Below, piece by piece: positions 6,359-9,326 of a stretch of 20,413 bases of DNA. The position numbers were made by a program, and so were the translations under genes. The notes beneath the pieces are model-generated. The model saw only the letters and a list, made by a program, of their open reading frames with translations. It was not told where the DNA came from and did no database searches. Within the stretch, counting starts at the first letter, position 1, and the number at the start of each line of letters is the position of its first letter. This DNA comes from a virus: positions 1 through 20,413 of IMG/VR virus record IMGVR_UViG_3300017706_000140, one strand, 5' to 3'.

Positions 6359-6745
6359 TTAGTGAATAGTATCTGAGATAACTTCAAAGTCATCATATAG
6401 ATCTTCTTCTTCTATATCCATTAGTTCTTGATCGGATGGGAACTCAACGTCTTCTTCTTCCATTCTCATCTTAGTAACACAGTATTCATAAAATTTAGAT
6501 AATCCGTAGGATGCAGCAGTAACCACAATAATCTGTGATTTAGGTACATCGTATGAATTTGTTTCAGAGAAATGTATCCATCTCTGTAATGAGAGTGACT
6601 CTTCTAAAGAACCATCTCTTTGTAACTTAGGAAGGGCATTTAGCTTCATAGGCCTACTAACCTTCATATGAGTTTTTTCATTAGTGCTTATATTGCAGAT
6701 AATTTCTTCACCACTAGATAGTTTTAGAATTTTTACATCTGTCAT
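6359..6745 (-). CDS. Conserved-looking protein of unknown function between UvsW and gp55
   Basis: This 128-aa protein begins TDVKILKLSSGEEIICNIST, a short beta-rich start with the L-x-S-G-E-E-I pattern seen in Sm/Lsm-like small barrels of phage proteins. A middle stretch (RWIHFSETNSYDVPKSQIIV) is followed by a strongly acidic C-terminus (about residues 95-125). The Lsm-like reading is inference from pattern only. The ATG overlaps the uvsW stop (ATGA), so it is translationally coupled to uvsW. A CATAAATA box (6795-6802) inside the end of uvsW could add a late start. A small unknown gene next to uvsW also occurs in other marine T4-like phages as I recall. A nucleic-acid-binding or accessory role in recombination is possible but unproven. 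Confidence 0.75.
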   Translation of the reverse strand: MTDVKILKLSSGEEIICNISTNEKTHMKVSRPMKLNALPKLQRDGSLEESLSLQRWIHFSETNSYDVPKSQIIVVTAASYGLSKFYEYCVTKMRMEEEDVEFPSDQELMDIEEEDLYDDFEVISDTIH

Positions 6746-8217
6746 TTAAGTTTAATCCTTTTAATTTCATAATCAAATTGTTCCTCATTGTATATATTTA
6801 TGCGTTCCATAAAGTGATTCAGGGTAAAGTTCCGTTTTGACTTGTATGTGATATCATCGGCAATGTCATAGAGGACAGCGGAATCTTTACTTTCACTCCT
6901 ACGCAAGCCACGTCCAATACTTTGCAAGGTACGAATTCTGGACTTACTTGGACTTGAGAACACGATTGTGTGAAGATTACGAATATTAATACCAGTAGAG
7001 AACGTACCATAAGATGCAACAATAATTGCATTCTTTTCTTTTTCTGTGATTTCACGAATTTGTTCTCTTGTCTGTGTATCAGTGCCTCCATATACATAAA
7101 ACACTTGTCTGTCTGTATTGGATTTGATTAAGTCATAAAGAACACTACCATGTTTCTCTACGAATTGAAAAAGAACTAATGTATTATTATTCAGACTTAA
7201 TGTCAAGTCTTTAATGAAATTATTTCTCTTTTCGTGTGTTACAATATAATCAATCTCATCTTGATAATTCATATCTTTTACAAGCTTGCATTCCTGTTCT
7301 GGATATGTTAATACAAGAGAACGTATCTTAAATGAAGATAAAGTTTTATCGTCAATCAACTTCTTTGTTGAAACAACTTTATTTAGCCCACCAAATAGTC
7401 CTTCCAGAACTAATCTGTGGGTTTGCATACCATCAAGTGTACCTGTAAGTCCAAAACGATATTTGCATAGATGCAATTTAGTCAGAATAGATGTGAGAGA
7501 TTTTGCTTTAAACAAATGAGCTTCATCACCTATGACACAACCAAATTGTTCAAAGTATTTCTTAGGCATTTTATACAAAGACTGCCATGTAGATATCACA
7601 ACTTTCTTTGATACTTCTCTATCATGTCCACTGTATACTTTTTGTATATACGCTTCTTGCCATCCATAGTCAATAAAATCAGAAGTCATCTGTTCAACCA
7701 AAGATGTTGTGGGAACAAGTATTAGTATTTTATCATTTTGATGTTCTCTGAGAAGTAATTCGTAATATCTTACTAGGATGTAAATAATAAGTGACTTGCC
7801 TGAGGCAGTAGGACTAAGGAGTAAAGCACGATGTTTTCTAATTGCGAAATCCACGGCATCAACTTGGTAGTCACGAGGTCTAATGGATTTACCTCTAGCT
7901 CTAAGATTAAGTTGTCGTATGAATCCATCCAGTATTTTTCTGTCAATTTGTTTTTCATCTTTTAGTTCCTCACTTATTTCATATGGTTCATCATAATCTA
8001 TTAACCACTTTTCTAAGTATGAAAGTAGTCCTAGATAAAGTTCTCCTGTGGCTGGAGAATACAAACGTATCTTACCATCCCAAATACGATTGCGATATGC
8101 AGGCATAAATCTAGCGCCTGGCACTTCAAATGTAAAGAAATCAGATAATGATCTTGCAGTAGATGGTTCTGCATTTACCTCTAGATAGACTTCATTTTTC
8201 TTTGAAACTTTAGTCAC
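6742..8217 (-). CDS. uvsW: DNA/RNA helicase UvsW
   Basis: This 491-aa superfamily 2 helicase unwinds branched DNA and R-loops, drives branch migration and shuts off origin replication in T4. The N-terminal domain (1-100) has FFTFEVPGARFMPAYRNRIW, matching the T4 family. The core carries Q-motif-like IRPRDYQVDAV (112-122), Walker A SPTASGKS (135-142), DEAH (231-234), GLTGT (256-260) and motif VI SIGRGLRR near the end. The size is close to T4 UvsW (503 aa). The start is GTG at 8217, overlapping the uvsY stop as TAGTG, so the two recombination genes are coupled. The GTG start gives the family's expected N-terminus. Confidence 0.96.
   Translation of the reverse strand: MTKVSKKNEVYLEVNAEPSTARSLSDFFTFEVPGARFMPAYRNRIWDGKIRLYSPATGELYLGLLSYLEKWLIDYDEPYEISEELKDEKQIDRKILDGFIRQLNLRARGKSIRPRDYQVDAVDFAIRKHRALLLSPTASGKSLIIYILVRYYELLLREHQNDKILILVPTTSLVEQMTSDFIDYGWQEAYIQKVYSGHDREVSKKVVISTWQSLYKMPKKYFEQFGCVIGDEAHLFKAKSLTSILTKLHLCKYRFGLTGTLDGMQTHRLVLEGLFGGLNKVVSTKKLIDDKTLSSFKIRSLVLTYPEQECKLVKDMNYQDEIDYIVTHEKRNNFIKDLTLSLNNNTLVLFQFVEKHGSVLYDLIKSNTDRQVFYVYGGTDTQTREQIREITEKEKNAIIVASYGTFSTGINIRNLHTIVFSSPSKSRIRTLQSIGRGLRRSESKDSAVLYDIADDITYKSKRNFTLNHFMERINIYNEEQFDYEIKRIKLK
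6795..6802 (-). promoter_or_regulatory. Possible variant late promoter (CATAAATA) in the 3' end of uvsW
   Basis: The minus strand reads CATAAATA, one base from the T4 late consensus, 50 bases before the start of the 128-aa gene. It lies in coding sequence, so it may be chance. Confidence 0.3.
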
Positions 8218-8645
8218 TAAATCGTACCATCTACAAATTTACGCCATTCGATTGCGTTTTTAATATCCCATCCACGAGACTGAATTTGTTTCAGAATACG
8301 TTCACAAGAATCCATGCACATCACATAGTATTCTACTTTTTGTTTTGCCTTAATTAGTTCTTCATCAGAATCCATATAGATATGTAAATCTGCTTTTAGA
8401 ACTTTATGGTCAAAGGGATTGTCACGATAGACTTCTGGTGATGCTTTACCACCATAGTATTCCCACTTCTTACGTTTGAGTACATTGTATGTACCCTCAT
8501 TCATAAGTCTGAGTTGTCTAAAGTTATTGTAGATGTTTAGGTATTTTTGGTGCAGAGTTGCAGACTTGAGAGACTCATCTGCGAGTTCCAAGTCATCCAT
8601 TTTTAAATCTTTTTCAGCTTGTAGCTGCAATTCATCAAGTGTCAT
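8217..8645 (-). CDS. uvsY: Recombination mediator UvsY
   Basis: This 142-aa protein is the T4-type mediator that loads UvsX recombinase onto single-stranded DNA covered by gp32. The assignment rests on size (T4 UvsY is 137 aa), an all-helical charged sequence starting TLDELQLQAEKDLKMDDLEL, and a conserved central part with NIYNNFRQLRLMNEGTYNVL. It is also placed directly before uvsW, as in T4-like marine phages. The ATG is preceded by TATAGGATGA as ribosome site. The gene is led by a T4-type late promoter (8757-8764) and a 100-base leader with predicted structure. Its stop overlaps the uvsW GTG. UvsX is not in the window. Confidence 0.92.
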   Translation of the reverse strand: MTLDELQLQAEKDLKMDDLELADESLKSATLHQKYLNIYNNFRQLRLMNEGTYNVLKRKKWEYYGGKASPEVYRDNPFDHKVLKADLHIYMDSDEELIKAKQKVEYYVMCMDSCERILKQIQSRGWDIKNAIEWRKFVDGTI

Positions 8646-8665
8646 TATATTATCATCCTATAGGC

Positions 8666-8751
8666 GAGCAGAGATTGGTTGGAACTTTCTTGTTCTATAT
8701 TATCTCTTTCAGAGACTCAACGATGGCTGTTAAAGTTCACCGTTTCTGCTC
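8666..8751 (-). ncRNA. Predicted structured 5' leader of uvsY
   Basis: On the minus strand GAGCAGA (8745-8751) can pair with TCTGCTC (8666-8672), closing an 86-base element. Three inner hairpins fit between them: AACGGTG with CATCGTT (one G-U pair, 12-nt loop), TCTCT with AGAGA (3-nt loop), and GAAC with GTTC (6-nt loop). Together they draw a four-way junction. The first base of the closing stem lies about 6 bases past the TATAAATA late promoter, so the transcript would start with the stem. The element ends just before the ribosome site of uvsY. It is not a tRNA: there is no T-loop and no 7-nt anticodon loop. Pairings were found by eye and no energy was calculated. Confidence 0.45.
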
Positions 8752-8756
8752 AAGTA

Positions 8757-8764
8757 TATTTATA
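8757..8764 (-). promoter_or_regulatory. T4-type late promoter (TATAAATA) for uvsY-uvsW
   Basis: Exact TATAAATA on the minus strand. It overlaps the TAA stop of the gp19-like gene and lies 112 bases before the uvsY ATG. The predicted start falls at about 8751, the first base of the structured leader. Confidence 0.7.
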
Positions 8765-9326
8765 AAGTTTCAAATTCGTACAAGTCGTAATTCATAGTTA
8801 CAGATGCAGTCAATTGGTTTGAGTCAGCAGTCTGTGAATCATAATCTAAACCAGATAGTGATGTTGGATATAACGCACTATAGTTTACATTAATCAATGG
8901 GTTATTCTTATTAGACAGAATGGTAAGAGTTCCATCTGAAACAAGAGCGGATGGATTTACTGTAGGGTTTTGTGATGCTGCGCCTGGCTTTGTTTGTTCA
9001 GCGGCAATTGCACTTGCAAATTGTTCTGGATCTTTTGGAAAACCAATCCCTGTCATCCAATCATGTATTTCACGATAATTAGATAAATCTTCACTTACTA
9101 GAAAAGTAAGTTCCATAGGACTGTATTCTAAAGTATCCCCCATAAAAGGCATAGCCTTGTATCTACTATTCATAATCGCATCACCAGAAAATGCAATGCC
9201 TGGAATGTTAACTCTAGTTACAAAGTAAATTGTATTAGGGATTTTTAAAAGACTAAACCTAAACTGACTAGGACTTGCAAAGTCTAGTGTTTCTGGTTGT
9301 CTCATTAGTGGATTAAATTCTACCAT
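8760..9326 (-). CDS. Virion structural protein resembling tail tube protein gp19
   Basis: This 188-aa protein can be aligned by eye in blocks with gp19 of the same phage. SQFRF and VTRVNIPGI (20-44) correspond to NQYRV and LVKATSLPG. MGDTLEYSPMELTFLV and YREIHDWMTGIGFP (62-97) correspond to AGDRTFETWTTTVI and VRNAIERWMNGIND. The end, ALYPTSLSGLDY to ASVTMNYDLYEF, corresponds to CWPTVVAPIELSY to FDVTWRYTSF. It therefore probably has the tube-type beta-sandwich fold shared by tail tube, tube initiator and terminator proteins. A Pro/Ala-rich insert (about 108-128) is not in gp19. It sits between gp23 and uvsY with its own late promoter (9345-9352) only 19 bases from the ATG, plus an AAGGAAG ribosome site. 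Role in baseplate, tube end or neck is undetermined. Confidence 0.75.
   Translation of the reverse strand: MVEFNPLMRQPETLDFASPSQFRFSLLKIPNTIYFVTRVNIPGIAFSGDAIMNSRYKAMPFMGDTLEYSPMELTFLVSEDLSNYREIHDWMTGIGFPKDPEQFASAIAAEQTKPGAASQNPTVNPSALVSDGTLTILSNKNNPLINVNYSALYPTSLSGLDYDSQTADSNQLTASVTMNYDLYEFETL

Follow-up and report, generated by a model that had tools for sequence, protein, structure and literature searches.

A conserved structured 5′ leader RNA before the late uvsY-uvsW genes of Melnitz-like phages

Only a few cis-regulatory leader RNAs are known in T4-like phages. The translational operator of gene 32 in T4, T2, and RB69 controls a recombination or replication gene, binds a protein ligand, and consists of a folded 5′ leader with an H-type pseudoknot followed by an A/U-rich ribosome site (PMC3014915). 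In the leaders of T4 gene e and I-TevI, a late promoter lies beside a hairpin that hides the ribosome site in RNA from early read-through and that the late RNA lacks (PMC3014915). In bacteria, the 5′-terminal stem-loops of ompA and papA illustrate a third principle: RppH and RNase E require single-stranded 5′ ends, and structures at the 5′ end stabilize mRNA (PMC3997798). Finally, the paper describing the Melnitz phages lists 15 late promoters and predicts a glutamine riboswitch (glnA RNA) at ssrA, and the word uvsY is absent from it (PMC9004378).

Here, we describe a conserved, lineage-specific structured RNA that adds to this small set and that precedes two genes of abundant marine phages, those for the recombination mediator and the R-loop helicase. 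Comparison of relatives shows that an RNA-level fold, made of a closing helix (P1), a long-range helix (K), and a hairpin (P3), is kept before uvsY throughout the Melnitz-like phages, where, judging from its sequence and position, it probably protects or regulates the uvsY-uvsW message. By analogy, the T4 gene 32 leader is its closest working counterpart, and the gene 32 layout, a folded element and then an A/U-rich, unstructured ribosome site, is found at this locus too. The uvsY leader differs from that operator in its gene, in a consensus without an H-type pseudoknot, in a protein ligand that is only putative, and in beginning at a late start site. It would resemble the ompA and papA stem-loops in having a paired 5′ end at the predicted start, and its ribosome site is likewise outside the structure, but it is larger and includes a long-range helix and conserved unpaired bases. 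It shares with gene e and I-TevI a late promoter beside a folded leader; the difference is that here the predicted late RNA keeps the entire fold and leaves the ribosome site exposed. With the glnA RNA it has in common that it is a structured regulatory RNA of the same phage group, albeit at another locus and without covariance-model similarity.

The DNA analysed, hereafter the window, is a stretch of 20,413 nucleotides (IMG/VR record IMGVR_UViG_3300017706_000140, positions 1 to 20,413), and comes from a T4-like phage closely related to Melnitz, whose hosts are Methylophilales (OM43). Its UvsY shares 84.5% identity with the UvsY annotated in the Melnitz phages (MZ577095–MZ577098), while the next-best relatives, from pelagiphage HTVC008M and cyanophages, reach 49–51%. 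Over the uvsY region, DNA identity to Melnitz is 72%, and the gene order matches: gp23, a hypothetical gene, uvsY, helicase, a hypothetical gene, and the late sigma factor. Annotated uvsW likewise lies downstream of uvsY in cyanophage S-SSM7 and, with one gene between them, in HTVC008M. Read 5′ to 3′ on the minus strand from 8764 to 8646, the gap before uvsY contains TATAAATA, TACTT, an 86-nt element running from GAGCAGA to TCTGCTC, and a 20-nt spacer with AGGAUG that ends at the uvsY ATG. The features are as follows, all on the minus strand.

8757–8764: T4-type late promoter box TATAAATA, seen in the sequence and also present in all 72 distinct relatives.
8666–8751: structured 5′ leader RNA element of 86 nt whose first base is the inferred +1; supported by fold z-scores and a covariance model score of 86.9 bits, the window being among the model-building sequences.
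8745–8751: 5′ strand of P1, GAGCAGA; covaries with its 3′ strand and is paired in 72 of 72 relatives.
8666–8672: 3′ strand of P1, TCTGCTC, the covarying partner in the same 72.
8732–8741: 5′ strand of long-range helix K (P2), GGU-GAACUUU; RNAalifold consensus and N10–N′ covariation.
8677–8688: 3′ strand of K (P2), AAAGUUC (8688–8682) plus ACC (8679–8677); minimum free energy (MFE) fold, consensus, and covariation.
8702–8716: hairpin P3, GUCUC(UGAAA)GAGAU; its three inner pairs are 100% paired in 72 sequences.
8695–8701: conserved unpaired AAUAUAG between P3 and K; AAYNUAR in nearly all relatives.
8682–8695: alternative hairpin P4, GAAC(AAGAAA)GUUC; excludes K and is paired in 69 of 72 sequences in a hand alignment that leans towards P4.
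8646–8665: A/U-rich spacer with the Shine-Dalgarno-like AGGAUG (8659–8654); outside the structure and unpaired in the MFE fold.
8217–8645: uvsY (recombination mediator), ATG at 8645; first gene of the transcript, identified by UvsY identity to Melnitz.
6742–8217: uvsW helicase, the second gene, an open reading frame whose start is overlapped by the uvsY stop.

In T4, the late promoter box spans about −13 to −6. With the same placement in the window, +1 falls on the first G of P1 (8751), in keeping with a box about one helical turn before the transcription start (PMC2988020). We infer, from the sequence and the T4 precedent, that the late uvsY mRNA begins at the first paired base of P1. The distance from TATAAATA to the GAG of P1 is 4 or 5 nt in 72 of 72 distinct relatives, so that base pairing starts at the predicted +1 throughout the group. 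An earlier note on this DNA had placed the element between the late transcription start and a point just ahead of the ribosome site, and the sequences agree: P1 sits at the predicted +1 in the window and in all 72 relatives, and the element stops 20 nt before the uvsY ATG. The same note had called this leader far longer than the other late leaders; it measures 106 nt from the inferred start, compared to 13–57 nt for the window's other five TATAAATA leaders. In Melnitz, most late leaders are short and that of uvsY is 110 nt. Two more Melnitz genes (leaders at 31038 and 132436 in L388–L390), the late sigma factor gene included, lie 100–159 nt after a TATAAATA box. The uvsY box itself overlaps the TAA stop (8762–8760) of the upstream tail-completion gene (window 8760–8764).

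The relatives comprise 72 distinct elements drawn from at least 388 loci, all from one phage group. Every listed downstream reading frame of the 72 is uvsY or begins like UvsY, and most were followed to the conserved WDI stretch. Their shared blocks are GAGYAG, GGUNNACUUNNNCA, AAYNUAR, N′AAGU, ACC, and CURCUC. The extraction pattern itself demanded GAGNAG and GGTNNACTTNNNCA, which accounts in part for the invariance of those two; the same conserved blocks are present in the first, unbiased set of 80 UvsY relatives. Patterns written without reference to uvsY returned only uvsY loci among the matches listed, and there is one copy of the element in Melnitz and one in a 145-kb relative. In bacterial genomes, none of 81 pattern matches carried the rest of the motif.

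The element folds better than its composition predicts. The MFE of 8751–8646 is −25.2 kcal/mol, compared to −16.3 in dinucleotide shuffles (z = −2.87; 1 of 200 shuffles as good), and the 86-nt element alone reaches z = −3.8. Low-energy folds occur in 17 of 17 clades (<85% identity), with a mean z of −3.3. In a structure-blind alignment of 22 sequences, the RNAalifold consensus is nested and consists of P1, a 7-bp helix K, and P3; for counting, GGU/ACC was added to K by hand. In this P1+K+P3 fold, 93.5% of cells are paired, with 35 double-change cells compared to 10.9 in shuffles, and the covariation is 0.268, compared to 0.04–0.09 for slid structures. Thus, the two checks proposed with the earlier note, a low-energy fold relative to shuffled sequence and compensating base changes in relatives, both came out in favor of a structure, the changes falling in P1, P3, and K.

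A tree-based test over all 72 sequences, in which substitutions were reshuffled along the tree (our own version of such a null, not R-scape itself), gives a more graded picture. The pair N10–N′ of K, which is G-C in 46 sequences, U-A in 17, A-U in six, and U-U in three, comes out on top among 5,671 column pairs, its E value being 0.013 with the tree of flanking genes and 0.1 with the tree of leaders. The P1 pair ranks third and the P3 pairs 7th, 10th, and 12th, but these are significant only as named pairs, and apart from the variable pair of K, no single pair survives correction for the full set of column pairs. Counted on the flank tree, independent double changes number four in P1, four in each of three P3 pairs, and six in K; on the leader tree, they number two in P1, two, two, and three in P3, and two in K. 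The exchange in P1 is between GAGCAG/CTGCTC and GAGTAG/CTACTC (2–4 independent double changes), and each inner pair of P3 likewise shows 2–4. The two trees disagree for the 72 leaders, which suggests that recombination may have swapped leaders from one lineage to another, in which case the flank tree may overstate the number of changes. K follows the formula GGU.NNACUUN/N′AAGUNN.ACC; most of its invariant columns do not vary, which puts much of the helix outside the reach of covariation, and its N4–z2 pair, standard in 75% of the 72 sequences, is not significant alone (p 0.08–0.09).

The earlier note had drawn the element as a four-way junction. Of that drawing, the closing helix GAGCAGA (8751–8745)/TCTGCTC (8672–8666) around 86 nt and the TCTC/GAGA hairpin stand. 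The P2 hairpin AACGGTG/CATCGTT pairs in only 35–53% of cells, with a weak shuffle test (mean fraction 0.31), and GAAC/GTTC, paired in about 74%, is a competing fold. In both the window MFE fold and the covariation consensus, GGUGAACUUU pairs with AAAGUUC..ACC as helix K, which excludes both hairpins, so the junction as drawn is not the conserved fold. Scored on the 22-sequence alignment, it has 78.9% of cells paired, 24 double-change cells, and a covariation of 0.205, carried by P1 and P3. A model of kissing loops between P2 and P4, in which ACUUN covaries with N′AAGU, gave way to nested K as the main model, since K explains this covariation and the N4–z2 changes as well; as regards an H-type pseudoknot, the consensus is nested and K accounts for that covariation equally well.

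Single-sequence ensembles are mixed, with mean probabilities of 0.94 for P1, 0.57 for P3, 0.53 for P4, and 0.39 for K. Since AAGUUC is used by both K and P4, the two helices are mutually exclusive. P4 carries a symmetric U-A insertion (GUAAC/GUUAC) in one group, while the clade of L324, L325, and L368 has lost P4 and kept ACUUG/CAAGU. In our reading, the conserved fold is K, and P4 is a competing helix that most sequences retain, possibly as a second state.

What the leader does can be proposed from its layout and by analogy with the systems above. Our preferred reading, to which we give about an even chance, is that this RNA acts in cis as the structured leader of the late uvsY-uvsW message, where it would combine a 5′-end shield with a candidate protein-binding site. 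A start at the first paired base would place the 5′ triphosphate at the end of a helix, and such a helical end would impede both RppH and RNase E and give the message a longer life, if the rules of E. coli apply in OM43 hosts. A plain hairpin would be enough for this, so the conserved unpaired bases need another cause: the invariant GGU..ACUU..CA, AAYNUAG, N′AAGU, and ACC may form a docking site for a phage protein that binds ssDNA or RNA, such as UvsY itself or gp32, and, once bound, that protein could exert feedback on translation by way of the A/U-rich spacer that follows. The least certain step is that K and P4 might be alternative states of a switch. In the window, the ribosome site sits beyond the structured element and stays unpaired in the MFE fold when the leader is extended by 60 nt of coding sequence, which makes a protective 5′ structure with a conserved recognition site the simplest reading. 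In other relatives, the ribosome site can pair partly with coding sequence (mean unpaired probability 0.45), and the spacer is 79% A+T over the relatives. Simple masking of the ribosome site is unsupported in the window, where the element does not cover it. The Melnitz isolates are in culture, making the start site, decay, and protein binding directly testable.

An autogenous translational operator with no role in 5′ stability, in which UvsY or gp32, once free of ssDNA, would bind the leader, spread over the A/U-rich ribosome site, and stop translation, would suit the gene 32-like layout (PMC3014915) and the conservation of specific unpaired bases. We consider it unlikely, however, given that the protein partner is only putative, the element occurs once in Melnitz and was not found before gene 32 of that phage, and an operator would not need a fixed position at +1. 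Unlikely, too, is an undescribed class of RNA switch, in which K and P4 would toggle on binding a phage recombination protein or a ligand; were it real, recombination capacity late in infection would be tuned by RNA.

In the form of a metabolite-sensing riboswitch, with K and P4 as the ligand-free and ligand-bound states, such toggling becomes improbable. The two mutually exclusive helices sharing AAGUUC are both widely kept, and a glutamine riboswitch is predicted elsewhere in Melnitz (PMC9004378), but no terminator-like site was found in the leader, the ribosome site is outside the structure and free in the window MFE, leaving no expression platform, and the target is a recombination operon. 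No Rfam riboswitch matches even up to E 5: with the Rfam 15 covariance models, nothing in the window passed the gathering threshold, and 8600–8800 gave only chance-level matches (E 3–5). We found no report of a uvsY leader structure in the open-licence literature. With no Rfam match, no such report, and no true bacterial match, the uvsY leader RNA is therefore new as a motif, though of a known kind, the structured 5′ leader of a phage mRNA.

A DNA-level element, either a cruciform or a replication origin like T4 oriF, i.e., ori(uvsY), is highly improbable. In T4, an R-loop origin does lie at the promoter of uvsY, and R-loops are unwound by UvsW (PMC3016281), but oriF depends on a middle promoter together with an A+T-rich unwinding element rather than on a folded RNA (PMC3016281); the window has a late promoter box and a structured leader, and in Melnitz the cumulative GC skew does not turn at uvsY. 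The pairing changes also favor the mRNA strand. P1, P3, and P4 together contain 52 G-U cells and three A-C cells (43 of the G-U cells are the last P3 pair), and in Melnitz, itself among the model-building sequences, the covariance model reaches 79.8 bits on the sense strand, compared to 20.2 on the other strand. The G-U excess and the sense-strand score favor a function in the uvsY mRNA. Just as remote is an undescribed self-cleaving ribozyme or processing site trimming the 5′ end of the message; the fold is compact with conserved internal loops, and the failure of known ribozyme families to match would suit a novel one as well as none, but no sequence feature marks a cleavage site. Least probable of all, a functionless by-product of sequence conserved for another reason would accord with the unvarying columns that put much of K beyond covariation, and fails to account for double changes repeated on the tree in P1, P3, and K or for the z-scores in all clades.

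Beyond the Melnitz-like group, the gene is preceded by something else. The element is absent from the pelagiphage-type uvsY genes examined, and in cyanophage S-SSM7, uvsY overlaps the upstream gene and has no leader. At 76 of 79 pelagiphage-type loci (50 distinct upstream regions), we found TTTACW-N13-15-ATGWTA, compared to 0.02 expected in shuffles, an expectation that is only a guide given that the pattern was written after reading those sequences. This motif resembles an extended −10 sigma70-type promoter and lies 7–24 nt before the uvsY ATG (L391–L470); it was not found in the window's gap before uvsY. Its position almost at the start codon suggests that in the pelagiphage-type relatives the leader is very short and uvsY is expressed at another time. 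Judging from these sequences, the Melnitz-like group seems to have rewired both the timing and the mode of uvsY expression, its pelagiphage relatives having an early-type promoter-like motif in that place.

A second late leader of the window also folds. That of the phage hsp20 gene (171–602), at 603–659 on the minus strand, forms two hairpins. In hairpin 2, UCUUGCUU pairs with the ribosome site AAGGAGA, the signature of a ROSE thermosensor; the Rfam ROSE_3 model scores below its cut-off, at 18.7 bits (E 0.052) in the window and 21.6 bits (E 0.0078) in the relative L577. Hairpin 1 varies in sequence, with its pairing kept, in relatives and in Melnitz.
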